Shown in pieces: positions 48,167 through 63,388 of a stretch of DNA of 64,000 bases. Position 1 is the first letter of the stretch. Every line of letters starts with the position of its first letter. A model generated the notes under the pieces. It was not told the DNA's origin and made no database searches. It saw only the letters and a program-made list of their open reading frames with translations. This DNA comes from Cladocopium goreaui (taxonomy: Eukaryota > Sar > Dinophyceae > Suessiales > Symbiodiniaceae). Location of the stretch: NCBI GenBank assembly GCA_947184155.2, contig CAMXCT020002657.1:445001-509000 (forward strand), in the 5' to 3' direction. A program made the position numbers and the translations under genes.

Positions 48167-48521
48167 CCCCCCACCCGCTTTTATTTTTTAGCCGGCTCCC
48201 CTTGCTACCTACTGTTTTTTTAATCACAAGCATCATCGTTGTTTATTTGGGTTCATTCAATCTTGATTGATATCCATCGCGACTTGTGCCTATGTACTTC
48301 TTTCTTGGTACGCATTGCGTGGGGAGGCGCTGCGCCCTCCCCCCTGCACCCCCCCACCCGCTTTTATTTTTTAATCGGTTTCCCTTGCTACCTACTATTC
48401 TTTTTGTTTTTCATAAGCATCATCGGTTATTTGGGTTCAGATCAACTTTATTGATATCCATCGAGATTTGTGCCTATGTGCTTCTTTCTTGGTACGCATT
48501 GCGGGGGGAGGCACTGCGCCC
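48167..48521. repeat. ~185-bp direct repeat, two copies
   Basis: Copies begin at ~48,167 and ~48,351 with CCCCCACCCGCTTTTATTTT. They share the blocks AAGCATCATCG, TTGATATCCATCG and TTCTTTCTTGGTACGCATTG. This lies just upstream of the retroelement leader and could be part of its 5' LTR or an older repeat. Confidence 0.8.
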
Positions 48522-48724
48522 TTGTTTTTGTTTCGACCTAATACCTACATAGGTACATGCATGAGTATTGAGCACATTTATATGCGCCCTTCAAGGCTCA
48601 AGAGGTATATAGAGTAACCCTGTAGACAAGCACTGACCGGCAACAGGCTGAGAGTAAAAGAGTGCTGTCATTGGGGAAGACGCCTTAGCTGATCTTGAAG
48701 TAGACGCTAGGGCCCCTCTTCAAG

Positions 48725-48736
48725 TGGTAGCGGAGC
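48725..48736 (+). promoter_or_regulatory. Possible tRNA primer-binding site
   Basis: TGGTAGCGGAGC begins with TGG and resembles the methionine-tRNA-type primer site of many copia elements (TGGTATCAGAGC, 10 of 12 positions). It follows TTCA, which could end a 5' LTR, and lies 44 bp before the ORF1 start codon. Assigned by position and resemblance only. Confidence 0.45.
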
Positions 48737-48779: not shown

Positions 48780-51700
48780 ATGGCAAGCCATGGCTATGAT
48801 GATGATGACTTCGACATTGTCGATGCAAATGAATGGAACCAATATGACTCTTATGCAATGAGAAGAGCACCCCAGCATACACAGATTCATATGACGCAAC
48901 AGATGACCACAAAGGTTGCTCCAGCCTATGATGGGCGAACCAGCTTCTTTGCTTTTGAGGATGCAATTGATGACTGGTGTGACATTACGGAGTTAGAACC
49001 AGAGAAACGTGGTCCAGCATTGCGCAACAGACTGGAAGGAGATGCTCAACAATACAAGAGGCTATTGGATAGAGAATTACTCAGGGATCCCTATGAAGGA
49101 GTGGCTTATTTCAAAAGATTTCTACGACCTCATTTCATCAAAGGTGCCCAGAACGTGTTCTTATACCGTTTCATGCAGTTCATGAAGTTCAACAGAGGAA
49201 CCATGGATCTTCAGAAGTGGATGACTAGATTTCAACTCACTGGCAATAGACTTATTGAGTCTTGGATGGATTTACTTCCAGAAGTAACAGTGACTAGTCC
49301 TGAAGCAATTCTGTTTGTTCAACAACGACGTCAAGAACATGAACGAGATCAACAAGAGAGAGCTGAAGTAGCAGCAGCCTCAGGAACACCCCATGTAGCT
49401 GTTCCTTGGACAGATGAACTGGCACTAGCGGCATTCAGACAATTTCAGGAAAATCGTAGAGAAGCACAGCGACAAGCATTCCCACTGGGTGAAAATTTGC
49501 TAGCATTGATTTTTGTAAGTCTAGCTGACCTGAGTCAAGATCAGAGAAACACACTCACAAGTATCATGACACATCGTGGACGAACCCTCGATCGATACAG
49601 TATTCAAGAACTACGTGACCTGTTTTTGGAAATGTTTTGCACTACCAAAACAGCAGTTGACAATCCATTGATGCAACCCTCTGGCATGGCACAGAGAAGA
49701 TCTTTCCTCGTACTGGATGAAGGTGAATTAGAAGGAACCGACGGCTATTGGGCCGAAGATGAAGAAGACGGCGCAGAAGGATTCCTGGATGCCTTAGAAG
49801 ATGTTTTCTGGGTTTATGATGACGCCAACTTCACATGGTATCAGAGAAGGTTCCAAGGCAAATACATCAGACGAGGCAAAGGTAAAGGAAAGAGAAAAGG
49901 AAAAGGAAAAGGCAGAGGAGGACGAAGGTTCTTCAAATCAAGAAAAGGAAAAGGCCGAGGAAAAGGAAGAAGAAAAGGCCGTGCTCACATGGTGAGTGAA
50001 GAAGGTTATGAAGATGAATGGCAAGAAGATGAATGGAATGAAAACTATGACGGCTATTGGGCCGATGATCAAACCTGGAATGAAGGCTATTGGGCCTATG
50101 ATGATCTGTACTACATGGATGAGTATGGATACTTCCAGAAGAAAGGAAAAGGAAAAGGAAAAGGAAAGAAAGGCAAGAAAGGCAAGGATGATGATGGAAA
50201 AGGAGGAAAGCCAGGAGATGGAAAAGGCAAGTCGAACTATGTTCAACCTCAGACCACATCAGCTCCTGCCATACAGAATCAACCAACTCAACAAGCTCAT
50301 TATTCTTCTGCAGCTTCAAGTTCTGGTCATGGTTTCTTTTCATTTGGAACAACTGAACCAGCACGTGTTGATGTTGCAGAGACAGAGCCAGCACGTGTTG
50401 ATGTTTTGACATCCACGTATGCAGCACAAGATGAACAACGACGTACTCGTCGTGGAGGACAGAACCAACGTGATGCAAGAGCACATCAAAACAGGAGAGA
50501 AATGAAGAGATTCCCTGTTCTGGTTGGAGAAGTTGGTGCACTACGACAAGGTGTACAACAACGTCCAGCTGTAGTGCCCAGGCAAGTTGGTCTTCAAGAA
50601 GGTGAGGCTTCATGGAAGCCATTGGCAGAAGGCACATCATTGTTTTCACATGGATGCTCTACAGAGATAGAGGAACCATCACAGCAGAGTGCTTTTTCAT
50701 TTCATACTGTACAAACTGATCTGGCATGTGAGAATGGACTAGCTTTTCACACAGAGAATTCTGCACCACCAACTGTGTGTATTCTGGATCTTGGATGCAC
50801 AAGAGCTATGGGCTCTCGACGAGCAGTTGAAGCATTTTGCAGATATGTTGACTCACATCCCAACAGTGGACTCTGGTATGAAATTCAGCCAACAAGTTCA
50901 AGATTCTTCTTTGCAAACTCACAACAATCAAAATGTACTGAGAAGCTCGTGATATTCATGTATGATCATGGATGGAACACTCAGTTTACAGAATTCGACA
51001 TTGTCGAAGAAGGTGATGTCCCATTGTTGATGTCACTTCCACAGATGAGAAACCTTGGATTTCAATTTGAACTTACTCCAGAGAAGGCTTATTTGTCCTG
51101 TGCACGTATTGGCATGAGAAAAATGGTTTTGAGGACAGCCATTAGTACTCATCTCATTCTCGACCTACAAGATGTAGCATGGTACATGAGCCAAGTTCAT
51201 TTCAAGACTCCACAAGTCAAAAGTTTCTATTCACAACACGATCACTTTGAGTACAGCCAGATTGCTGTCAAACAAGATGATCATGAAGGAGAAGCTTTGG
51301 TGACTGGTGACTACTGGCAGGTTGATCCACTACGTCGTGAACTCATCAGGCACCACAAGGACAAGAGAATGAACTTACATGAGATGACTCGATCAGAGAA
51401 AACTCCAATTCCAAAAGATCAACTTCTTGATGAGAGAGAAACCCACATGGAATTCCAGAAGAGCAAGAAGAAGGTTCTTCACAAGGACAACTGGCGCACT
51501 GAGAAGAAGAGGTTTTCTGAACAGAGTGAAGAGTTCTGGAAGGGCAAGACCATCTACAAGATCAAGGAGGACTACGTGATCCCAGATGACATTGTCAGAA
51601 GTGACATTGATCGTGCAAGGCCCTTTCGTGGAAACATTGATGATCTTTTTCACCCTGAGTCAGCCTCTTCAGTGCCATCAGGTGTACAGAAGAAGAAGCC

Positions 51701-54700
51701 AAGCTCCTTAAAGAAGGAGGAAGGCAAACCGATTTCAAATGGACCAGGCTCGAAAAAGATTGAGGTAGGTCCACCTGCAGCCAAAAGACACGTAGGTAAG
51801 CAGAAACCTCAGGTTGTCGATGACTCTCAATCAGGTTCATCAAGAAAGAAGGTTGTTGTCTCCTATCCCAAGCTTGATGAAGAAGATGAGCTTGACAAGG
51901 TAGCTAGGGAATTAGGTTTGGACAAAATTGATTCAGATGAACCTCAAGTCATTGAACCAAAACATTCTGCACCTGCGCGCAACCGTGGTAAGCAAGATTC
52001 AGAAAGTCAAGTTGAGAAACTAGGTAGTGATGCTCTTGAGCCTAGGCGAGTTTCGATTCCACTGCCTGGTAGTGAAGTGCAAGCCATGACACCAGCATAC
52101 AGAAAGATGCTCAGGAAACTGGAGGATAGTGTGGAACTTTACAAGCTTCATATCAAACACTATCACATGTCTCCTACTCAATTCAGACGAAGGACTTCCA
52201 TGTTAGGACTTCCTGACTCTGTCTATCAGAAGTATGAGGAGATGTACAACAAGTGTCGTGTGTGTAGTACTTCCATTGCACCACCGCCGCGAGCCAGAAT
52301 TTCAGGCATACGATCCACCAACTTTGGAGATGTTATCTTTGTTGATCATGCTGAAATTCAGTTGAGGAAGAACAAGTACATGGTGTTGCTTGTTCTTGAT
52401 GGTGCAACCAACTTACTTTGGGCTACGGCACAAAACTCACTGAACAACAAGGAGACCATTCAGGCTCTAAGGTTGTGGAGTGATGAACACAATTGTATGC
52501 CTAAAGCCATTGTAGGTGATGAAGCTTTCTTTCAAGAAGACTTTCTGACTTATTACCGAACTCATGGTATCAAGGAATGTCCCTGTGGTTCAAGAACCCC
52601 ATGGCCTAACAGAGCTGAATCAGCTGTCAGACTTTTCAAACGACAATGGCAAATCATGTCCAAGAACCTTGAAGATGATAGGTTCAAAGGAATCACCATC
52701 AGAGAAGCTGTGAAGCGTACTGTTTGGGCCAGAAACACTCAACTCACTGTTAGTGGTTATTCTCCTTTGGAAATTGCCACTGGTAGAAGACCACCAGATC
52801 TTCTGGATATTGAGACTTCTGATCCTGCTCAACTTAGTGTTGATCCTTTACCTGAAGACAAAACACAACTCGAGTTGCAAAGGTTAGCACTGAGGGCACA
52901 TCAGGAAGCCAGACAAGCTGCTGACCTCAGACATGACATGGCCAAACGAACAATGCCATCAGATGGACCTTACAAACCAGGTGACAAGGTTTTCGTTTGG
53001 AGTTCCCCTGTCAATGCTAATGCTATTGCTTCAAAGGCATGGAAGAAGGAAAGATGGATCAGAGGTACTGTTATCTCTCAAGAAGGTGCTATGGTCAATG
53101 TTCATGTTGACAACGCAGTCATGCGTGTTAATCAATCGAAGGTGAGACGTGACCATGATGAATGGCATGATGTTGCTGTTCCTGGACTTGACACATCGGA
53201 ACCTGTTCCACTTGCAGTTGAAGATGAAGATGACTATGAACCAGACATCGCTGAATATGCTGAAGCCTACTTAGGTGAACAAGCTCACTGGTTTTGTCAA
53301 ACTGGCAAATGTGATGTTGTGGAACTCTTCAGTAGCAACACTGGTCTTAGTTGGCACATGGCACGATTGAACATGAAGGTTGGTGAACCCATTGACCACA
53401 AGCATGGTTGGAGTTTCAACAGCAAAAAGAAACAAAACCAAGTTTGGAAACAACTTGAGAAGCTTGATCCTGAATACGTGTTGATCACAAATCCTTCACC
53501 AAATTCCTGGAAATACTCGGTATTCAAGTTTTGCCTTGATGTGATGAAATGGCAAGCTGACCGAGGAAAAGGTTTCTTGGTGATTGCACCACCTGATTCA
53601 GGATTTGCTCAGTTTTTGGCTTGGAAGAAATTTCAGAAGGACAGAATCAAGTATCACATTGGTTGTTTCAACCTTGACATGACAAATTACTGTCGTTGTG
53701 ATCCTTCAATCAAGAACTTGCGTGTGTATTACAATCATGATGAAGACTTTGACATGTTGGAACCACAGCATGCCTTCAATAGAGAAGGGAAGCTTTGGAA
53801 TGATCCACAATGGAAGGTCTTACCATCTCACTTGTGTTCATTCATTGCGCAGTTCACACAACTTGTACCTTTGCAGAACATGAGACAATGTTTCTTGTTT
53901 GAAGATCTGTTGGAACATTTTGATGATGGAGCATTGTGTGGCACGTCAATGTTTTTGGACCGTGAACCTGAGTGCTCGTGTTTGTTGCAAGATTTGCATC
54001 ATGTTGAGACCTCGATTCCAGTGCCGTTGAAGCACATTCTTCCACAGAGATTTACCACTCAGTTACTTGTTCAAACATTGAGGAAGATTGATCAGTTGCC
54101 AAGGAGTACAGAGGCTAGTGTCAGAGAATCAACTGACCCCAGAATCATTGAACTGATTCCTGGACTTCAAGATGTCAGAAAGAAGACATTGCCTCAAATG
54201 TACTTTGAAGATTGCAGTGTGTTCAGAGGAACTTATGGAAGAGTGAATCCTTTGTTTCAACATCCTGAAGATGCTGTCCTACTTATTTGGAAACCTGGTG
54301 ACTATGATCATGTTTACTTCATGTTTGTGTCACAGTTGTATCCACATCATGAACAGTTCAAAATCCATGAATGGAGTATGATCGTCTTTTCACGAGAAAC
54401 GACTGGTGCTATCAAAAGGAGAGTTGAAGATCCTCCTAGTTCAAGTAGCACACCACCAAATGGTGACGATCCCATTCATCCAGATCAGCATGGTGATGTT
54501 CCACCAAATGATGATGAGATGTTGAGTGGTGATGAACCAGAAGATCCTCTGGATGATGATAATCAACCTGATTACAATACTGGACCCGATCCAGGTGATG
54601 ATGATGATCAAGAGTATATCATTCCAGATGATTATGGACCACCACCTGATGATGATTTGGATATGCCAGGAATACAGGACTCGGGGGAAACACATCAACC

Positions 54701-57700
54701 AAGTTCACCATCAACTCCGTTTTCCAATCCTGACATTCCAATCGAAGAGATTGCTGATCCTGGACAAGATGACGATTCACCACCAGGACCTGATCCGACG
54801 TCAGAGCCTATCAGAGTTCAAAGGAAACAGAGACAGATCTCAACTGATTCTACTGATGCTTTACCAAAGGCAAAGGCAAAGGTGATTATCAAGAGGCCAA
54901 AGGTTCAATTACCAGGTCATGTTCAGCCAATTTCAGTTCCTACTCAGAAACCTCATGAAGATGAAGATGAAGGACCTTCACATGATCCTACTGCCTCAAG
55001 TTCACATGATAATACAATTCCATTGCCTACTACTACACCAACATCGTTTACGCCAGGTGACTTTGCGCAGCCAGCGCAACAGCAGTCTTCACAAGGAACA
55101 CCAGAATTGGTATCATCACAACATGATGATGATGAAACAGAACCATATGAAACAGACGACACTCCTGTTTTGACTGAGGATGACATTGCTCAGCTTCAGG
55201 AAGAAGATGTGGACACTGAACCTTACACATCAGACCACTCTCATTTTGTCGATGTTGATGGTACTGTTTTCGTTCCTTTAGGACCAAAGGTCCAAGCTGC
55301 ACCTGAGTTTGGTTCATACGATGTTACTGGATTCAAACAGTTTGAACAGTATCTTGCCAAGAATGGAAAGAAGCAGCCAAAGGCAGAATCAGTTATCACT
55401 CAAGAAGTCTTGAGAAAGTATGCTAAGGAGATCAAACAAGCCAAGCTTGAAGAATTCAGAAGTTTTCTGGATTTCACTGCCATGACTTTCAGAGACAAGA
55501 GACGTCATAAGATTGATAACTATGTCACTGGCAGATGGGTGCTTACCATCAAGGTTGATAAGGATGGACAGTTCAAGAAGTTCAAGGCTAGATGGGTATG
55601 TAGAGGCTTTCAAGATGCTCAAAAGTATGACTTACAGACTGACAGTCCTACTGCTACCAGGTATGGTTTTCGTGTGGCATCTCAGCATGCAGCCTCGATG
55701 TACTGGGATTTACTCCATTTAGACTTGAAAACTGCCTTCCTTCAGGGGGAAACATACGACTTAGACCGCCGCGTTATCCATGTTCAGTTGCCTACTGACA
55801 TTGGTTTGCCTCCTTACTTGGTTGGTTTGTGCACTCGTTCCGTCTATGGACTTGCGGACGCACCACGTAGATGGTGGAACCGCCTTGACAAATTTCTGAT
55901 TTCGCTTGGTATTCAACCTACAAGAGCTGACAGGTGTACATATGTATGCTATGATGGTGCTTTCAAGGAGCCAAAACAGGTTAGCTTTGCTGACTCTGAG
56001 GCAACAGAACCAGCACCTGTGACATACTACGTAAGCTCACAAGACAGTGAGGAAACGCGTGATGAATCCTCCGACATTGCTGAGGAAGTTCATAAGTCTC
56101 TTTTGGTTGAAGAAAGATTGTTTTCAGCTTGCTATCAACAAACCCAAACATGGAAACAGAGGAAAGAGTTCAAGGAGAAGAAGGTTGAAGATTGTGCTTG
56201 GACTCCTGTTGTTGATGAAACTTTGTTGAAGTTTTTGGAATCTGTTGAACACAAGTCTGGTTGGTATCCTTTTGAAAATGGTCATGCTCAAGTTGCTTAT
56301 CGTGCAAAAGCTTTGAGAACTCCTGATTCACATTATGATCGAAAGAAGTTTCACTTGAGAACTTCTATTGTGAAGAGGAAAGGAGTTTGGTGGTTGCTTG
56401 AGATGAATCATGACATGAACAAGGACAATGTTTCCACAAGTTTGGAAGAAGAAGCTGAAGTACTTGTTTCAGTCTTCTTACCTTCAGAGCGTACTTATCT
56501 TGCCACGACACCACAGTTGACACCAGAGATTGTTGAACAACTCTTGGAACACTTCATGGACCCTGTGAATGGCAGTAATGCCAAGGGAAGAAAACCTATT
56601 GGCATGTGTTGTTTGCATGTTGACGACTTGTTCATTACAGGAACTCCAGAGTTTCTGGAGAAGTTCAAGAAAGTTGTCAAGTCACAATTCAAGATTGGTC
56701 ATGAAGATGTGAATGATTTGATGTTCACTGGTCAACGTGTGAAATGGATCATTGATGAGAAGACCAAGAAGAAATCACATATCACTGTTGAACAATCACT
56801 TTGCGTCAGTGAACTTACTGAGGTTGTCATACCAAAAGGTTTGAAGGATGAAGACAAATGTGACAAAGATCTCCACACTGCCTACAGATCACTCTTAGGT
56901 AGTATCAATTGGTTACAATCAAGAACTCAATTTCAGTCATGTTATCAGTTTTCACGTTGTGCTTCTGCCGCTGCTTCCCCCACCATAGGTGATTGCAAAA
57001 CGCTGAACAAACTTTGCAGGCAAATTGTAGGTGACCCGATGGAACTTATGTTCTGGCCACTGCAAGGTGATCCTAGATTAGTTGCAATGCCAGATGCAGC
57101 GTTTAGGAACAACAGCGACAAATCCTCACAGCGCGCAATGGTTATTTTCATGGCTGAACCGAGAAAGGAAAAGAGCAAAAACACCAGAGGTTCTCTTATT
57201 TTCTTTGAATCAACCAAAATCAAACGTACCACGTTGAGCACAACTGTTGCAGAGTTGTATGCACTCATGAAGTGTTATGGTACATGTCAAATGTTGAGAG
57301 GACTGATCAAGGACATCACTGGACTTTCAAGTGAGATTCATATGAGGACTGATGCAAACAATCTTGTGACTACTGCCAGCACTACTCATGTTCCTGAACA
57401 ACAAGAGACCATTCATATGATTCAGATGCTTAGGAAAGAAGCATGTTCAGGTTCCATTGCTGACTTGTCACATATCAGAACTCAATGGTGTTTAGCCGAT
57501 TGTTTGACCAAGAAATCTGCCAATCCTCAGAATCTTATCGATGCTGTTCGACAAGGTGTTCTTAAAGAAGTTGATGCTCATCCACCATTCAGATCATTAC
57601 TGGAACACAAGGCTTACCTCAGGTCATGGTTGCCAACAGTTTGCAGTCATGTTGATTTCAGACATGATGTATTTCTGTTAGGTGACACCTTGAGGGATTC

Positions 57701-57704
57701 TTGA
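48780..57704 (+). CDS. Copia-type Gag-Pol polyprotein (ORF1)
   Basis: 2,974 residues from the ATG at 48,780. Gag-like helical N-terminus (1-350), then Lys/Gly-rich tracts (~361-404 and ~454-490) separated by a Trp/Tyr/acidic segment; no CCHC zinc knuckle is visible. Aspartic protease signature LDLGCTRAMGS with Asp670. Integrase: HHCC zinc site (His1124, His1127 or 1129, Cys1159, Cys1162) and catalytic Asp1189, Asp1247, Glu1280. A methyltransferase-like region at ~1503-1650. An acidic Pro-rich linker at ~1880-2180. Copia reverse transcriptase (RVT_2): RWVLTIKVD near 2250, LHLDLKTAFLQG (Asp2315) and HVDD (Asp2615, Asp2616), with ~210 extra residues between. RNase H Asp2772, Glu2825, Asp2858. 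It ends at a TGA in the context TGA CTA. The product would drive particle assembly, cDNA synthesis and integration. Confidence 0.93.
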   Translation: MASHGYDDDDFDIVDANEWNQYDSYAMRRAPQHTQIHMTQQMTTKVAPAYDGRTSFFAFEDAIDDWCDITELEPEKRGPALRNRLEGDAQQYKRLLDRELLRDPYEGVAYFKRFLRPHFIKGAQNVFLYRFMQFMKFNRGTMDLQKWMTRFQLTGNRLIESWMDLLPEVTVTSPEAILFVQQRRQEHERDQQERAEVAAASGTPHVAVPWTDELALAAFRQFQENRREAQRQAFPLGENLLALIFVSLADLSQDQRNTLTSIMTHRGRTLDRYSIQELRDLFLEMFCTTKTAVDNPLMQPSGMAQRRSFLVLDEGELEGTDGYWAEDEEDGAEGFLDALEDVFWVYDDANFTWYQRRFQGKYIRRGKGKGKRKGKGKGRGGRRFFKSRKGKGRGKGRRKGRAHMVSEEGYEDEWQEDEWNENYDGYWADDQTWNEGYWAYDDLYYMDEYGYFQKKGKGKGKGKKGKKGKDDDGKGGKPGDGKGKSNYVQPQTTSAPAIQNQPTQQAHYSSAASSSGHGFFSFGTTEPARVDVAETEPARVDVLTSTYAAQDEQRRTRRGGQNQRDARAHQNRREMKRFPVLVGEVGALRQGVQQRPAVVPRQVGLQEGEASWKPLAEGTSLFSHGCSTEIEEPSQQSAFSFHTVQTDLACENGLAFHTENSAPPTVCILDLGCTRAMGSRRAVEAFCRYVDSHPNSGLWYEIQPTSSRFFFANSQQSKCTEKLVIFMYDHGWNTQFTEFDIVEEGDVPLLMSLPQMRNLGFQFELTPEKAYLSCARIGMRKMVLRTAISTHLILDLQDVAWYMSQVHFKTPQVKSFYSQHDHFEYSQIAVKQDDHEGEALVTGDYWQVDPLRRELIRHHKDKRMNLHEMTRSEKTPIPKDQLLDERETHMEFQKSKKKVLHKDNWRTEKKRFSEQSEEFWKGKTIYKIKEDYVIPDDIVRSDIDRARPFRGNIDDLFHPESASSVPSGVQKKKPSSLKKEEGKPISNGPGSKKIEVGPPAAKRHVGKQKPQVVDDSQSGSSRKKVVVSYPKLDEEDELDKVARELGLDKIDSDEPQVIEPKHSAPARNRGKQDSESQVEKLGSDALEPRRVSIPLPGSEVQAMTPAYRKMLRKLEDSVELYKLHIKHYHMSPTQFRRRTSMLGLPDSVYQKYEEMYNKCRVCSTSIAPPPRARISGIRSTNFGDVIFVDHAEIQLRKNKYMVLLVLDGATNLLWATAQNSLNNKETIQALRLWSDEHNCMPKAIVGDEAFFQEDFLTYYRTHGIKECPCGSRTPWPNRAESAVRLFKRQWQIMSKNLEDDRFKGITIREAVKRTVWARNTQLTVSGYSPLEIATGRRPPDLLDIETSDPAQLSVDPLPEDKTQLELQRLALRAHQEARQAADLRHDMAKRTMPSDGPYKPGDKVFVWSSPVNANAIASKAWKKERWIRGTVISQEGAMVNVHVDNAVMRVNQSKVRRDHDEWHDVAVPGLDTSEPVPLAVEDEDDYEPDIAEYAEAYLGEQAHWFCQTGKCDVVELFSSNTGLSWHMARLNMKVGEPIDHKHGWSFNSKKKQNQVWKQLEKLDPEYVLITNPSPNSWKYSVFKFCLDVMKWQADRGKGFLVIAPPDSGFAQFLAWKKFQKDRIKYHIGCFNLDMTNYCRCDPSIKNLRVYYNHDEDFDMLEPQHAFNREGKLWNDPQWKVLPSHLCSFIAQFTQLVPLQNMRQCFLFEDLLEHFDDGALCGTSMFLDREPECSCLLQDLHHVETSIPVPLKHILPQRFTTQLLVQTLRKIDQLPRSTEASVRESTDPRIIELIPGLQDVRKKTLPQMYFEDCSVFRGTYGRVNPLFQHPEDAVLLIWKPGDYDHVYFMFVSQLYPHHEQFKIHEWSMIVFSRETTGAIKRRVEDPPSSSSTPPNGDDPIHPDQHGDVPPNDDEMLSGDEPEDPLDDDNQPDYNTGPDPGDDDDQEYIIPDDYGPPPDDDLDMPGIQDSGETHQPSSPSTPFSNPDIPIEEIADPGQDDDSPPGPDPTSEPIRVQRKQRQISTDSTDALPKAKAKVIIKRPKVQLPGHVQPISVPTQKPHEDEDEGPSHDPTASSSHDNTIPLPTTTPTSFTPGDFAQPAQQQSSQGTPELVSSQHDDDETEPYETDDTPVLTEDDIAQLQEEDVDTEPYTSDHSHFVDVDGTVFVPLGPKVQAAPEFGSYDVTGFKQFEQYLAKNGKKQPKAESVITQEVLRKYAKEIKQAKLEEFRSFLDFTAMTFRDKRRHKIDNYVTGRWVLTIKVDKDGQFKKFKARWVCRGFQDAQKYDLQTDSPTATRYGFRVASQHAASMYWDLLHLDLKTAFLQGETYDLDRRVIHVQLPTDIGLPPYLVGLCTRSVYGLADAPRRWWNRLDKFLISLGIQPTRADRCTYVCYDGAFKEPKQVSFADSEATEPAPVTYYVSSQDSEETRDESSDIAEEVHKSLLVEERLFSACYQQTQTWKQRKEFKEKKVEDCAWTPVVDETLLKFLESVEHKSGWYPFENGHAQVAYRAKALRTPDSHYDRKKFHLRTSIVKRKGVWWLLEMNHDMNKDNVSTSLEEEAEVLVSVFLPSERTYLATTPQLTPEIVEQLLEHFMDPVNGSNAKGRKPIGMCCLHVDDLFITGTPEFLEKFKKVVKSQFKIGHEDVNDLMFTGQRVKWIIDEKTKKKSHITVEQSLCVSELTEVVIPKGLKDEDKCDKDLHTAYRSLLGSINWLQSRTQFQSCYQFSRCASAAASPTIGDCKTLNKLCRQIVGDPMELMFWPLQGDPRLVAMPDAAFRNNSDKSSQRAMVIFMAEPRKEKSKNTRGSLIFFESTKIKRTTLSTTVAELYALMKCYGTCQMLRGLIKDITGLSSEIHMRTDANNLVTTASTTHVPEQQETIHMIQMLRKEACSGSIADLSHIRTQWCLADCLTKKSANPQNLIDAVRQGVLKEVDAHPPFRSLLEHKAYLRSWLPTVCSHVDFRHDVFLLGDTLRDS

Positions 57705-57707
57705 CTA
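57702..57707 (+). promoter_or_regulatory. Probable stop-codon readthrough site (UGA CUA)
   Basis: The only stop between ORF1 and ORF2, which share one frame, is TGA at 57,702-57,704 followed directly by CTA. UGA CUA is the core of a known efficient readthrough context in animal and viral genes. The frame then stays open to 60,008, so readthrough would append 768 codons to Gag-Pol. That it works in this organism is inference. Confidence 0.55.
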
Positions 57708-60011
57708 TTTTTTGAATTTGTGCCTGCGGCTCAAGAGGCAGAGTCTCGAGGATCGCACTGTTTCTTCAACATGTCGAGCTCTAGCCGGTGGAACAGGGCC
57801 TCAGCCGCATCATCTAGTGATCAGGCACAATCGAACACTCGAGGTCAAGAATATCAAAGCTATGATTTTAGCAGAAGACATTCAGCTGATGGATATGCTC
57901 TGAGAAGATCAGAGGAAATCCCAGCTGACAGATTTCGAACACCATCAACGTTACCCGATGAGGATCATTTATCATTTTGCTATGATTACAGGCGCCAAAC
58001 AGACTGGTTTCAGGCTCACGAGCAAGTGAGGAAGAAGAGAGAGCGCAATTTACATACATTGATGGGTCCACACAACATGAGACCAACTGACAGACATGAA
58101 ATGTTCATGGACGCAATAGCTTGGATTTTGCACTGGGGAACTAGTCATGGAGAATTTGATGAATCTTTGAAATGGACTTCAAGTTTTCTGAAGTATCTCT
58201 GTGGCTTTACAACTCAGGCAGAAGAAAACTGGTTTGATGAACGATGCAATGATTTCCACGTGGACATGACTAGCTCATCAAGGAGAAGTTATTATATGTC
58301 ATGTAGCAAGAGGCTATCCAATGTGTTGAGACATTGCAGAGACAAAACGTTATTCACTGCCAGTGGAGCTATGAACATTTCCTTACTGTTTGATCAGATG
58401 CAAGGAGACAATCCAAAGGAATATCACATGTCTGGAGCAGATTTTGCTGCTATGTTACTGTGTAATCCAAAACAACGTTTCTTTGTTGAGATCTCCATGA
58501 GATGGCAGTGGTACCCATACAGCTCAATGGCAGAGTATCCATTCGACGTTCGTCTTGGTGCTTTTCAAGGACATAGCAACCAAGTTGTCGATCCCACTGT
58601 GGCACACCACCAACTGACATATGATGAGGCTATGAGTTTGGGCTGGATTTTTCATGTCACTGATTACATGAATTTAGATTCCATTCAACAATCAGGCCTG
58701 AAGACCTTTGTGAAAGGAAGTGGAAAAGGCAGAAGGGATGCAGTTCACTTCATGTACCACAATGACAATGGTCAGGGCTACATAAGGATGGCAGAGGGCA
58801 CGAAGCCTCCAAGAAACTATAGGCGACCAGTGTACCTCGTGTTGGATCCAAGTTTTATTGTGGACAACCAACTCTATCTGACAAAGAATGGTGTCATTTT
58901 ATTTCATGGTGACATTCCTTTCCAGTACCTCCATGTCAAGGAACAACTCCCTACCATTGCATGTAACGTTGTTCATCAAGGACGTGGTCATTCTCTACCT
59001 CCATCAGTTACAGGTGGTTCATGGCACACCAACACAACATGGAACCATGTCATGAAGGAGAAAGGTCCAACATTTATTCCTGGACAAGACATTCCTGAAG
59101 AAGTCAGAATCACAGCATGGGAGTTCATGGGTCAACAGGTTCCACAAAACTATGGAAGATTAGTTTTTGGTACACCACTATGCAACGAGAATGACTTTGA
59201 CCCGATTGTGGAATCAATCTATGGTGCAGCAGCAGAAGGCTCTCGAGAAAGAGAGGTATCTGCAGCAGAAGGCTCTCAAGAAAGAGAGGTATCTGCGCAG
59301 GCTGATGAACCCATGGAAAATCCATATGAACAGCCATCAAGAAGAGGACGCTCTCAAGAAAGAGAGGAACCTCAAGATGCATGGGAGCAACAACGCTCCT
59401 CATCAGGAAGTCCAGAATCACCACAACATGATGATCCTCAACAAGATGCTCAAGACAATCAACAAGAGGAGCCATCAGTGGACGTCCATGACGACCCAAT
59501 GGGTGAAGAGGCTGTCAATCTCTGGGAAGCAGAAGATCCACCAGATGATATTGAAGACCCTGTGGTAGAACAGGCTACCAAAAGTTCAATTTCTGCATCG
59601 AATCCCTGGGTCCTGTATGAGGCAGGTATTGTCTGTGCAAGAGAAGAGAGCGGTGAACTCATCAAGAACTCCTCAGGAGAAAAAGTGATAGTTCTGCGTG
59701 AATGGAACCTACTACTCTCTTCACAAAAGATAGCACTTCGTAGACAATCGATCACTCGCTCAGACTGGGAGAAGTTACCATGGACAGGACATCTATGCTT
59801 ACTCTTCACAAGAGCTTGGGAGATTGGACGCATGTTGGCACACTTCCATCGAGAAGGAAACATTGAAGCCATGGAAGGTTACATGACTCTTGTCGACAAT
59901 ATTGGACAGACTGGATGCGAGGTCAAGTTGCCCCAACAGGTTGGGAAGACAGACACAGTATCAACAGAGACGAATGGAGAGAGAAGTTCTTGCTATACGA
60001 AAGAGACTTAG
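57705..60011 (+). CDS. ORF2: Tpt1/KptA-like RNA 2'-phosphotransferase domain protein
   Basis: In frame with ORF1 after one TGA. The first ATG (57,771) would give 746 residues, and numbering follows it. Residues ~178-415 match Tpt1/KptA from end to end: SKRLSNVLRH (Arg187, His188), NPKQRF, DVRLGAFQGHS (Arg261), FHVT with SIQQSGL, GRRDAVHFM (His326), NYRRPVYLVLD (Arg351/352), NGVILFHGDIPF (Asn373). Tpt1 enzymes use NAD+ to remove the 2'-phosphate from spliced tRNA, and some ADP-ribosylate 5'-phosphate nucleic-acid ends. All four signature Arg-His-Arg-Arg positions are present, so activity is plausible. The ~180-residue N-terminus is novel. Residues ~489-533 carry SQERE repeats, followed by an acidic linker and an unknown ~140-residue C-terminus. 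The end overlaps ORF3 by 97 nt. Confidence 0.88.
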   Translation, partial: LFFEFVPAAQEAESRGSHCFFNMSSSSRWNRASAASSSDQAQSNTRGQEYQSYDFSRRHSADGYALRRSEEIPADRFRTPSTLPDEDHLSFCYDYRRQTDWFQAHEQVRKKRERNLHTLMGPHNMRPTDRHEMFMDAIAWILHWGTSHGEFDESLKWTSSFLKYLCGFTTQAEENWFDERCNDFHVDMTSSSRRSYYMSCSKRLSNVLRHCRDKTLFTASGAMNISLLFDQMQGDNPKEYHMSGADFAAMLLCNPKQRFFVEISMRWQWYPYSSMAEYPFDVRLGAFQGHSNQVVDPTVAHHQLTYDEAMSLGWIFHVTDYMNLDSIQQSGLKTFVKGSGKGRRDAVHFMYHNDNGQGYIRMAEGTKPPRNYRRPVYLVLDPSFIVDNQLYLTKNGVILFHGDIPFQYLHVKEQLPTIACNVVHQGRGHSLPPSVTGGSWHTNTTWNHVMKEKGPTFIPGQDIPEEVRITAWEFMGQQVPQNYGRLVFGTPLCNENDFDPIVESIYGAAAEGSREREVSAAEGSQEREVSAQADEPMENPYEQPSRRGRSQEREEPQDAWEQQRSSSGSPESPQHDDPQQDAQDNQQEEPSVDVHDDPMGEEAVNLWEAEDPPDDIEDPVVEQATKSSISASNPWVLYEAGIVCAREESGELIKNSSGEKVIVLREWNLLLSSQKIALRRQSITRSDWEKLPWTGHLCLLFTRAWEIGRMLAHFHREGNIEAMEGYMTLVDNIGQTGCEVKLPQQVGKTDTVSTETNGERSSCYTKET

Positions 60012-63000
60012 CAATACAGAAGGACATGGAGTATCTCTCAGAAGCAGTCTTTGTCTTTTACACTAAGCATCTTGATCAGTTCATTAGAGAGAACAACAAA
60101 CTCTGGGGAGATTTCTGCAGGAGAAAGAAGGACCGTGATGGTAACATTTTGGATGCACTGGAGTTGAACACACATGGGTATGACATGACTATTCAAGGAA
60201 TTACAGTTCCCATGAACAAGAGAACAGTCATCCCAGAACCTGAACGGCATTTCTCGTTTTCCACAAAGATGATGATCATGGCAATCGATCTGTATGAAGA
60301 TGAAGCACCTGCTAGCTTTAGCCATTTCACAGTTTTTGCTTTGAACAAGCTTCGACAATTTGTGGATAGCAGAAAGGAATTGACAGCTCAATCCTACAGA
60401 TTCTTTGTTGAACATGCCTACAATCAATTCTTTCAGCATGAAGCATTCCATCAATCTGCAAGAGCAAGGACAAAGGTCAGGGAATGCGGTTCAGGTGACT
60501 TCCACACATCTACAAAGCTCGATGGCTACATCTGGGTAGCTGGAAAGGACAAGATCGCTCACATCCCAGGATCAGAGCAACAGAATGTGGACATGGAAGG
60601 TCACGATGATGATGATGCTGAAGATGATTTGGAGTTTTTGCCAAGACTACAAGTTTTTGTCAGGAAAGAGGAGGAAAAGGCATCAGGCTCTCAGGAAAGA
60701 GAGGAAGAAGGTGTATGCTCTCAAGAAAGAGAGGAAACACAACCACAACAAGAAAGTGAGGTATTACCTGATGCAAATCCTCGAAGAAATATGGAAGATC
60801 GACAGGGACTGTTTATAGTCAGGCAACTCAAACCAGAGCACAGACAGATCCTCCATGATATTACACTCCAAGGCCAATCAATCCTCACAGAAGATGATCT
60901 TGAAGGAGGTCGACCCCTTGAACGTGGTGACATAAGCTTCTTCTCATTATGGTTGATGATGTCAGCATTATCAGATGCTTCTTTTTCAACATTTATGGAG
61001 CAGTATGCACCTATGATGGGTTATGAGATCTCTTACGACAAGTACTATGAGTTCAAACTGGATATTGACCAAGTTCTCAAGGACAATGAACACCTTGGCG
61101 CAGAAAATTTCTTTGGAGCAGAGGATCCTCATATGGTGGACGATGATCCAGACACTCCACTTCCAGATCTTCAAAGACCAGGCGCAGGTGATCCTGAGTA
61201 CAAGCATACCATTGAAAGTTTGAACATTGAGGACAAACATATCATTTTGGAAACTGATGATGACAAATTGGTTGAGTGTACATTGAAATGGATCAGTATG
61301 TGCAATCAGAATGTTCAACGAAAGATCAAGGAAAGTTTTGTCAAACCAGAAGAAGGACAAGAGAAAGAAAAGGATGAAGAAGAGAAGATTGCTGACGAAG
61401 AAAAAGAAGAAGAAAAAGACACACAGGAGCCACATGTCCCAGCTGAAGGCTCTTCAGAGAAAGAGGAATCAGCTCCACCTGAACGCTCCTCAGAAAAGGA
61501 GGAATCAGGGGAGAAGAAGACAGACATTCAAGATGATGAGACAGCTCCTGAAGTGAAACCTGCAGTTCGACTTTACTATGGTCAAGATATCACTGGAAAC
61601 GAAGATGATTCAGTTTTTCGAAGATTGAAGGATTGTTTTTCAGATGGTTACCATGGTGAATGGGCAGGATTTTACAACAAAGGTTATCCAGCGTCTTCGA
61701 AGCATCGACATATGTTTTGGCATGTTAAGTACAGGAAGACCATGTCTCCACATCATGATTTTTGGTACCATCTTACAGATGACCAGTTGATGGTTGAGTA
61801 CATTGCCAGACACAAGAATCAGGATCCACAACTAGAATTACAAGAACTTAATCAGCGCATTGAATATGGTTGTAGTGATCCAAGGATGCATCCTCTTCAT
61901 CAAGACAAAGCAGAAAGATCCTCAAAAGAAGCAGAAAAGAGGATTGATGACGATTTTGGAAATCTCACAAGGGTACTCCAAGATTACGTTGAGGACCACA
62001 AGGTCTTGCCTTACTGTATGATCTTGCATAGCTTGGCTTACAGGTATTTAGGTGGAGGCCTATCAGACCCAACATACAAGGATGCCGAATTTCCATACAG
62101 ATCCTCTCCACAGATAACAGCAATGTTTTGGAATTTGGGAAACTGGTGCAGAAACAGATTTGAAAAATGCCCGGTTCCAGAAAGATTTCAACAATTCATT
62201 CCACACATTGACTACACTATCGATGAGGATCATGAAAAATTTGATGAAACCAAATCACAGTTCAACAATTACTTCATCAATGTCATCAAGAACTTTGGAG
62301 GACATCTTTTCATGAATTGCGAGGCTGGTTCGTTGTATCCTCACAGAGAAAGACTCGACGAGGTTGACTTTAAAACTTGCTTCAATGACTATCATGACTT
62401 GATGGTGGCAGCTCGCCTTGGAAAGGATGGCTATATCAAGCAAATTGCTGGATATCACACAGATGACAACGACACACGAGTTCGACAAGTCTCATGGGCA
62501 ATCTTTGAAGTATCTTGGGGAAAGACAAAGGATCGAGATACAGATGAGATTGTTGACTTGACAAGAGCTAGGATGAGAATGACACGTGTGTGCGTTTATC
62601 ACGTCGGACAGAAGTATGCATCAGACTCTGCTGGGATTGTTGGTGAGTGCTTAGCTGTTATGGCTTTTGAGTGTGCCAGATATCAAGTTGACTTCATCGC
62701 AGGTGATGGAAACAAGGCATGCTATTACAGCACACCAAAATCTCCAGGTGTCCCTACATATCAACACAGCCTTATCCAATTCTGGATTAACAGAATGGTA
62801 GGTGTTGCAACACAAGCCATGCGCAAGAATTTTGATCCAACTTGCCCTCCAATCAGGGTCAAGCATTTCATTTCTTGCAGTTATCGTGACTTGGATTTTC
62901 TTGCAACGCACTTGGATGGCATTACAACAGCAACATACACCGACGAGCTCATGAACAAGACAAATGGTAAAGGTGATTGTTGTATGTTAACAGTTGTTGA

Positions 63001-63388
63001 GTGGGGTCATTCACGTTTGATGTGTGAGGAACACCCAGAAGACTTTGAGGATGAAGATCACATGAACTATGTGGGTGAATTTTACTTCAAGGTAAATGAA
63101 ACTTGCTTACATGGTGATCACAACATCTTCATGGTTGCTCCAAATGATCGCGATGCTCATAATCCAATTCTTATCCATCTTGATCCTTCTGATATGTCAT
63201 GGAATGAACGACATCATTACAAACAGGCCTACAAGAAGAAGCAGTATGCTGATTCAAGAAAGGAAAGACAGAAGGAGAAAAAGAGAAAGGCATATGAAGA
63301 TCAAGCATCGACGTATCAGGGCAACACAGAGTGGGGTGGATCCTCATCTTCAGCGTCCAGACCATGGAGATCAAGTGAGTGGCGATGA
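59915..63388 (+). CDS. ORF3: 1,157-residue protein with a C-terminal EEP-like domain
   Basis: Starts at an ATG inside the end of ORF2, in the -1 frame relative to it. The N-terminus (1-~225) is helical and unrecognised. Acidic and Glu/Lys-rich linkers carry SQERE-type repeats at ~250-280 and ~505-535. Residues ~735-1040 resemble the endonuclease/exonuclease/phosphatase fold, with landmarks in order: FWNLGNW (Asn740), MNCEAGSLYP (Glu803), VCVYHVGQ (His896), AGDGNKA (Asp931, Asn933) and WGHSRL (His1032). The usual final SDH is not intact. The basic C-terminus contains KKRKAYED and a Ser-rich tail. EEP enzymes cut nucleic-acid or other phosphoesters; this one could nick DNA or process nucleic-acid ends. 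The match is by motif order only. Confidence 0.7.
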   Translation: MRGQVAPTGWEDRHSINRDEWREKFLLYERDLAIQKDMEYLSEAVFVFYTKHLDQFIRENNKLWGDFCRRKKDRDGNILDALELNTHGYDMTIQGITVPMNKRTVIPEPERHFSFSTKMMIMAIDLYEDEAPASFSHFTVFALNKLRQFVDSRKELTAQSYRFFVEHAYNQFFQHEAFHQSARARTKVRECGSGDFHTSTKLDGYIWVAGKDKIAHIPGSEQQNVDMEGHDDDDAEDDLEFLPRLQVFVRKEEEKASGSQEREEEGVCSQEREETQPQQESEVLPDANPRRNMEDRQGLFIVRQLKPEHRQILHDITLQGQSILTEDDLEGGRPLERGDISFFSLWLMMSALSDASFSTFMEQYAPMMGYEISYDKYYEFKLDIDQVLKDNEHLGAENFFGAEDPHMVDDDPDTPLPDLQRPGAGDPEYKHTIESLNIEDKHIILETDDDKLVECTLKWISMCNQNVQRKIKESFVKPEEGQEKEKDEEEKIADEEKEEEKDTQEPHVPAEGSSEKEESAPPERSSEKEESGEKKTDIQDDETAPEVKPAVRLYYGQDITGNEDDSVFRRLKDCFSDGYHGEWAGFYNKGYPASSKHRHMFWHVKYRKTMSPHHDFWYHLTDDQLMVEYIARHKNQDPQLELQELNQRIEYGCSDPRMHPLHQDKAERSSKEAEKRIDDDFGNLTRVLQDYVEDHKVLPYCMILHSLAYRYLGGGLSDPTYKDAEFPYRSSPQITAMFWNLGNWCRNRFEKCPVPERFQQFIPHIDYTIDEDHEKFDETKSQFNNYFINVIKNFGGHLFMNCEAGSLYPHRERLDEVDFKTCFNDYHDLMVAARLGKDGYIKQIAGYHTDDNDTRVRQVSWAIFEVSWGKTKDRDTDEIVDLTRARMRMTRVCVYHVGQKYASDSAGIVGECLAVMAFECARYQVDFIAGDGNKACYYSTPKSPGVPTYQHSLIQFWINRMVGVATQAMRKNFDPTCPPIRVKHFISCSYRDLDFLATHLDGITTATYTDELMNKTNGKGDCCMLTVVEWGHSRLMCEEHPEDFEDEDHMNYVGEFYFKVNETCLHGDHNIFMVAPNDRDAHNPILIHLDPSDMSWNERHHYKQAYKKKQYADSRKERQKEKKRKAYEDQASTYQGNTEWGGSSSSASRPWRSSEWR

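Follow-up and report, generated by a model that had tools for sequence, protein, structure and literature searches.

Known Systems

The Tpt1/KptA/TRPT1 enzymes (PF01885) combine a two-lobe fold with the motifs LRH, QGHS and H-x-T and a fourth arginine. For CthTpt1 the essential tetrad consists, according to PMC6333775, of Arg18, His19, Arg68 and Arg121, with Lys66 being non-essential; step 1 of the reaction is the ADP-ribosylation of the phosphate, and the R64A variant of RslTpt1 had step 1 lowered threefold and step 2 lowered 210-fold. The same paper regards it as an open question what Tpt1 does in organisms that lack yeast-type tRNA splicing. ADP-ribosylation of 5'-phosphate RNA is described for human TRPT1 as well as for a bacterial KptA, and that of DNA for TRPT1; the exchange of any tetrad residue of TRPT1 for alanine led to complete loss of 5'-phosphate ADP-ribosylation (PMC6582358).

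The closest precedent for the locus described here is provided by the DNMT-carrying retroelements of Symbiodinium, SymbioLINE-Dnmt and SymbioDIRS-Dnmt3, followed by KptA-containing polyproteins of RNA viruses. The former are likewise dinoflagellate retroelements with a captured nucleic-acid-modifying host enzyme under purifying selection; the abundant copia superfamily in Symbiodinium is described as having no DNMT domain, and in the present case it is a copia-type element that carries an ADP-ribosyltransferase fold (PMC5890265). Neither "phosphotransferase" nor "PTS" occurs in the main text of that article. In two RNA viruses KptA is embedded in the polyprotein of an RNA-based selfish element, as it is here, but these viruses are positive-strand and not reverse-transcribing, in contrast to a retrotransposon; the words retrotransposon and retroelement are absent from the text of the paper reporting them. 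Titles and abstract openings of the open-licence literature yielded no report of a retrotransposon with Tpt1/KptA. Retroelements with captured enzymes are already known; what appears to be new is the identity of the enzyme, the change in its tetrad, and the location downstream of a leaky-type stop codon.

Architecture of the Element

The window, that is, the whole 64,000-nucleotide stretch of Cladocopium goreaui DNA analysed here, ends inside the element, and the contig runs on as L029. The 3' LTR, a 204-bp repeat with TG...CA termini at 64046-64249, is located on this continuation, and both LTRs are flanked on their outer side by GCCCT. The sequence TGGTAGCGGAGC next to the 5' LTR presumably resembles the initiator tRNA-Met site. 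On the basis of the LTR pair, the GCCCT duplication and TGGTAGCGGAGC, the unit 48523-64249 is therefore a complete, young copia-type LTR insertion which encloses both ORF2 and ORF3. The features of the locus are compiled in Table 1.

Table 1. Features of the copia-type element and its Tpt1/KptA domain (window coordinates).
Feature	Positions	Strand	Basis or remark
Target-site duplication GCCCT, 5' copy	48518..48522	.	same 5 bases after 3' LTR, window-scale 64250-64254 (L029)
5' LTR, 200 bp, TG...CA	48523..48722	+	matches 64046-64249 bar one 4-bp indel
Primer-binding-site-like TGGTAGCGGAGC	48725..48736	+	2 nt inside 5' LTR; complement ends CCA
ORF1, Gag-Pol, 2974 aa, uninterrupted	48780..57704	+	reverse transcriptase by Pfam; protease, integrase, RNase H by eye only
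Reverse transcriptase; strongest RVT_2 match at aa 2249-2394	55524..55961	+	PF07727, E 1.9e-17
UGA-CUA, ORF1 stop in readthrough-type context	57702..57707	+	same frame as ORF2; TGA CTA in frame in 15/20 copies
ORF2 frame	57705..60011	+	listed from GTG 57720; first ATG 57771
Tpt1/KptA domain, winged-helix RNA lobe and NAD lobe	58299..58904	+	profile and predicted fold
Arg-His of LRH (CthTpt1 Arg18-His19)	58329..58334	+	Arg 72/73, His 71/73 readable relatives
Arg at non-essential Lys66 position (counted in the initial annotation)	58551..58553	+	ungapped alignment to RslTpt1
Gly (GGT) at essential Arg68 position	58557..58559	+	alignment to QGHS
His-Val-Thr (HGT motif, holds NAD)	58653..58661	+	His 78/79, Thr 78/79 readable relatives
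Arg of RDAVHF (CthTpt1 Arg121)	58734..58736	+	Arg 81/81 readable relatives
ORF3, 1157 aa, continues ORF2 in relatives	59915..63388	+	frame break from ORF2 in window copy

The copia-type reverse transcriptase (PF07727) and the TG...CA LTRs with a target-site duplication assign the element to Ty1/copia, with which it shares the RVT_2 domain, a putative integrase ahead of the reverse transcriptase (by eye), short LTRs and a 5-bp duplication. The integrase profile rve scores below its cut-off (E 0.2) at the expected place upstream of the reverse transcriptase, where HHCC and D-D-E can be discerned by eye. In contrast to Ty1/copia, the present element measures 15.7 kb, with a Gag-Pol of 2974 residues and approximately 1.9 thousand extra residues past pol.

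Two side observations concern this unit and its surroundings. Within ORF1, inspection by eye of the stretch VVELFSSNTGLSWHM... (window 53300-53700, approximately aa 1510-1640) suggests a likeness to a degenerate methyltransferase fold; Pfam gave no methyltransferase match for it. Both the window element (after 48167-48522) and its downstream neighbour (L029 past 750) are preceded by GCGCCCT within a 184-bp tandem repeat, a shared setting that hints at a preferred target site or at duplication of the unit as a whole.

The Tpt1/KptA Domain

PF01885 recognizes residues 194-395 of ORF2 with E 2.1e-9 and 38.1 bits (cut-off 26). Solved Tpt1 chains could be matched by sequence with the alignment of ORF2 relatives (best E 5.1e-6), and a PDB sequence search with ORF2 as single query gave no Tpt1 match. 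The AlphaFold2 model matches solved Tpt1 chains by fold, and both the winged-helix RNA lobe and the ART-type NAD lobe are present in the predicted structure. Profile and model support the initial annotation in its view that the copia-type element codes for a genuine domain of the Tpt1/KptA fold. The motif series read there holds in its order (LRH, NPKQRF, QGHS, HVT, SGL, VHF, RPVYLVLD, NGVIL) but not in its spacing, which is R-x4-QGHS instead of R-x5 and R-x2-VHF instead of R-x3. Compared with the cellular enzymes, Arg68 is replaced by glycine, the HGT motif for NAD keeps its histidine and threonine with valine for the middle glycine (HVT), and the domain resides in a retroelement frame with long unrelated flanks.

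The Position of Arg68

The initial annotation had counted all four essential residues (Arg, His, Arg, Arg) as present. In the ungapped alignment to QGHS, VRLGAFQGHS of ORF2 pairs with EKIRANQGHS of RslTpt1, such that the arginine of ORF2 falls on the lysine and its glycine on the essential arginine; the residue which had been counted lies two residues ahead of the essential position of the family. The tetrad is hence incomplete, with three residues retained and glycine as the third member. Alignment of all 89 ORF2 relatives to the window, with uncovered positions taken as unreadable, revealed at the Arg68 position of 79 readable relatives Gly in 73, Arg in 3, and Ser, Ala and Trp in one each; the Trp case (P0083) is apparently poorly aligned, being odd at Arg18 and Thr103 as well. 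The Lys66 position is occupied by Arg in 50 of 79, by Tyr in 14, Phe in 13, and His and Ser in one each, and His101 and Thr103 are conserved as given for the HVT motif in Table 1. In the bacterial control, the best 80 of 190 confirmed loci (49-66% identical to the query and near kin of one bacterial Tpt1), Arg18, His19, Arg68 and Arg121 are each found in 80/80, and the Lys66 position varies.

The role of 2'-phosphate removal, as put forward initially, is weakened because in RslTpt1 it is the absence of this very arginine that stalls step 2. Arginine is found at this position in P0024, P0035 and P0040, and also in the genomic copy L009; a full enzyme is possible in this branch, as far as the residues tell. 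Since P0024 nests within the Gly-bearing family in the domain tree, the branching suggests that glycine may be the older state and arginine may have been regained.

Copies, Relatives and Selection

A search of the genome (1.166 Gb) with the 329-aa domain region as query, which counts carriers of the domain, returned 515 candidate places; 122 were scored, all of them at 98-100% identity over 328-329 of 329 residues, and a single one contained an internal stop. In 20/20 copies sampled from these 122, the end of pol lies directly ahead of the domain. The 89 relatives in the protein database, mostly from ENA contigs and one from EukProt, extend down to 28% identity. Among 53 IMG/VR stretches that fit a search pattern, none encodes a relative.

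Compared with L032, the adjacent element copy on the downstream side, the domain of the window exhibits 18 synonymous and 5 nonsynonymous differences (dN/dS 0.064), versus 0.28-0.36 for the remaining three pieces of ORF2. For the distant copy L009, which is broken by 4 stops in ORF2, the domain gives 0.176, the other ORF2 pieces 0.301, 0.104 and 0.164, and ORF1 0.179. By these ratios the domain is under purifying selection, and its rank as the most constrained piece of ORF2 holds for the close pair window/L032 only. As a separate observation, the window and L032 do not differ over the final 336 residues of ORF1, with ORF2 92% identical, and the comparison with L009 gives dS 0.38 for ORF1 and 1.2-2.4 for ORF2; modules seem, by these values, to have been exchanged between element copies.

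The Gag-Pol/ORF2 Junction

ORF1 and ORF2 lie in one frame, and from ORF1 to where ORF2 ends this frame is interrupted by a single stop, the UGA at 57702. The junction UGA CUA UUU UUU GAA UUU GUG is identical in the window, L032, L009 and L113, a sameness that may be due merely to the low divergence of the adjoining ORF1 (dS 0.38). Twenty further copies, selected largely by frame length (1883-1901 aa in 18, 3191 and 3472 aa in one each), displayed TGA CTA in frame in 15 cases, TGA TTA in frame in one, CGA CTA in one, and a longer T-run that puts ORF2 out of frame with the stop in three, so that these are rates for long-framed rather than for all copies. The copy with CGA for UGA (G000:C2073:111387-112373) has an open frame of 3191 aa. 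Another copy, C865:22884-23870, is open over 3472 aa with its TGA kept; this frame therefore arises elsewhere than from a change of the Gag-Pol stop.

Sixteen relatives, among them P0049 (43-45% identity), share a similar peptide (PAAQ...) between UGA and the first ATG, and another three, P0009, P0051 and P0052, have Trp at the stop position (TGG, or UGA called Trp by the gene caller of the source). The ATG at 57771 (MSSSxRW), 23 codons past the stop, is found in relatives as well. A 21-base sequence which we take to be the spliced leader DinoSL occurs in 172 exact copies in this genome, versus 0 for its reversed control, which marks the host as a dinoflagellate. High readthrough is known for the motif UGA CUA G (PMC12233894); the seventh base is U at the present junction (CUA-U) and not the G of the full motif. 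A structured readthrough signal 3' of the stop was considered and is unsupported, the downstream RNA having no folding advantage over shuffled sequences (z -0.99). That ORF2 is a gene of its own is doubtful, judging from the reading frame, because it lies in frame behind a leaky-type stop.

ORF3

ORF2 and ORF3 form one protein in P0092 (884 members), and the first part of ORF3 is joined in P0005 as well. The commonest open frame among the 122 scored copies is 1894 aa (14 copies), and 37/122 fall at 1880-1905 aa. Because such a frame would reach approximately from the UGA to where ORF3 ends, ORF2 and ORF3 are, by frame lengths, normally a single frame, and the window copy, with a frame of 768 aa, is broken between them. 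ORF3 has no Pfam match, and in its 16-member alignment just four Pfam families were touched, each by a single member (E 0.057 at best). The AlphaFold2 model of ORF3 (pLDDT 49.5) had no Foldseek match at E<=0.001. An endonuclease/phosphatase-like motif, VDFIAGDGN, noted by eye, was unsupported and was dropped.

Other KptA Classes in the Same Genome

Searching the genome with PF01885 yielded 1496 candidates; scores were obtained for 150, and every one of these exceeded the cut-off. L001-L003 are canonical Tpt1 genes with a complete tetrad. Judged by eye, L001 is of eukaryotic appearance, and L002 and L003 are of bacterial appearance and may come from contaminant contigs. Twenty lower-scoring loci were sampled and comprise one of the window's family (L009), 14 of class 3, two relatives of class 3 (L013, L018), two of a fourth class (L010, L012) and one of class 2 (L025). 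The idea that all matches of about 50 bits belong to the window's family was abandoned, as tblastn leaves only L009 among the 20.

Class 3 is a copia-like polyprotein, the second such in the genome: the 2615 aa of L017, for example, include YVDD and RNase H motifs recognized by eye (RVT_2 E 0.0071, below cut-off) and, after these, KptA (E 5.4e-12). In class 3 Arg68 is kept and the histidine of LRH is lost. Class 2 (L004-L008, L030, L031 and L025, with L005 inside L030) bears KptA at 94.7 bits within a 2107-aa frame that is unlike the window's polyprotein by tblastn; its RT- and RNase H-like motifs, seen by eye, are in regions that Pfam does not recognize, and its Arg68 position is Ala in all members, including L031 at 43% identity. 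Both classes are called retroelements here from their motifs and copy number. Pooled pN/pS values amount to 0.342 for KptA and 0.193 for RT-RNase H in class 3 (16 copies), and to 0.352 for KptA and 0.389 for an upstream piece in class 2 (6 copies); by this measure the KptA domains of both are under selection, which in class 3 is looser than on the reverse transcriptase. By domain content, no fewer than two further polyprotein classes of the genome carry KptA domains. A tree of 32 domains, with bac_L087 left out, grouped class 1 (support 100/99), class 2 (99/99) and class 3 (100/99); the order of the classes relative to cellular Tpt1 is weak, and long branches meet. Independent capture of KptA by the classes is likely on this sequence evidence.

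Proposed Function and Alternatives

The interpretation which we prefer, at a little under an even chance, is that of an accessory step-1 ADP-ribosylating domain of a copia-type family, made by UGA-CUA readthrough and tagging nucleic acid ends. A cellular Tpt1/KptA would have been captured long ago by the LTR family and kept by selection. Made at a low level and attached to the C terminus of Gag-Pol, the domain would be brought by this fusion into the particle together with element RNA, where it may bind NAD+ and a phosphorylated end of element RNA, cDNA or primer tRNA. It would perform mainly step 1, the joining of ADP-ribose to the phosphate, and step 2, the removal of phosphate, would be slow since Arg68 is glycine; the step-1 assignment was proposed because R64A in RslTpt1 spares step 1 and cripples step 2. 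The capped or tagged end could protect the nucleic acid of the element against nucleases, phosphatases or ligases of the host. Against this model it has to be held that the TRPT1 tetrad mutants are dead on 5'-phosphate ends, unlike RslTpt1 R64A with 2'-phosphate (PMC6582358), and that the apparently stronger selection on the domain derives from the one close pair window/L032. A broader form of the proposal, in which unrelated families captured Tpt1 and at least two independently lost the step-2 arginine (to Gly or Ala), yielding a readthrough-delivered end ADP-ribosyltransferase that would cap or tag retroelement RNA or cDNA, is offered tentatively, with the chances leaning against it.

Alternatively, the domain could be real but belong to a separate protein started at ATG 57771 by reinitiation or trans-splicing. 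That ATG is common to relatives, in 3/20 copies ORF2 does not share the frame of the stop, and the spliced leader occurs 172 times in the genome; however, the stop-to-ATG peptide is conserved as far as P0049, and the UGA stands in frame in 16/20 copies, with a sense codon in 1/20, which makes an independent start rather unlikely, if still a serious contender. A dead Tpt1 fold retained as a binding module for RNA ends or NAD, for example in packaging element RNA or primer tRNA, would agree with the inactivity of the TRPT1 mutants on 5'-phosphate RNA (PMC6582358), with alanine at Arg68 in class 2, and with the lost LRH histidine in class 3. Mere binding would not obviously need the NAD-holding His and Thr, Arg18 and Arg121, which are nevertheless kept almost throughout in relatives down to 28% identity, and we consider this module unlikely.

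A complete RNA 2'-phosphotransferase, with some other basic residue in place of Arg68, would heal 2'-phosphorylated RNA from host ligation or RNase attack. It can be rationalized by the three retained tetrad residues and His-x-Thr, by the nearby arginine at the Lys66 position in most readable relatives, and by Arg68 itself in P0024, P0035, P0040, L009 and class 3. This Lys66 position is Phe or Tyr in 27/79 readable relatives, however, leaving no substitute for Arg68 there, and the invariance of Arg68 in the bacterial controls as well as the 210-fold slower step 2 of RslTpt1 R64A (PMC6333775) point the same way, such that a complete enzyme appears improbable. A host gene fragment or a chance insertion into one copy, for which no supporting evidence was found, has practically no chance in view of the 122 nearly identical places with the end of pol directly ahead in all those sampled, the 89 relatives, and the position of the domain within LTRs and a target-site duplication.

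Implications

A domain amplified in more than 100 selfish copies offers a natural setting for finding the substrate of Tpt1. The repeated loss of one arginine leads to a sharp biochemical prediction, namely a step-1-only enzyme. ADP-ribosylated RNA or cDNA ends in dinoflagellates, if true, would constitute a new layer of the conflict between retroelement and host.
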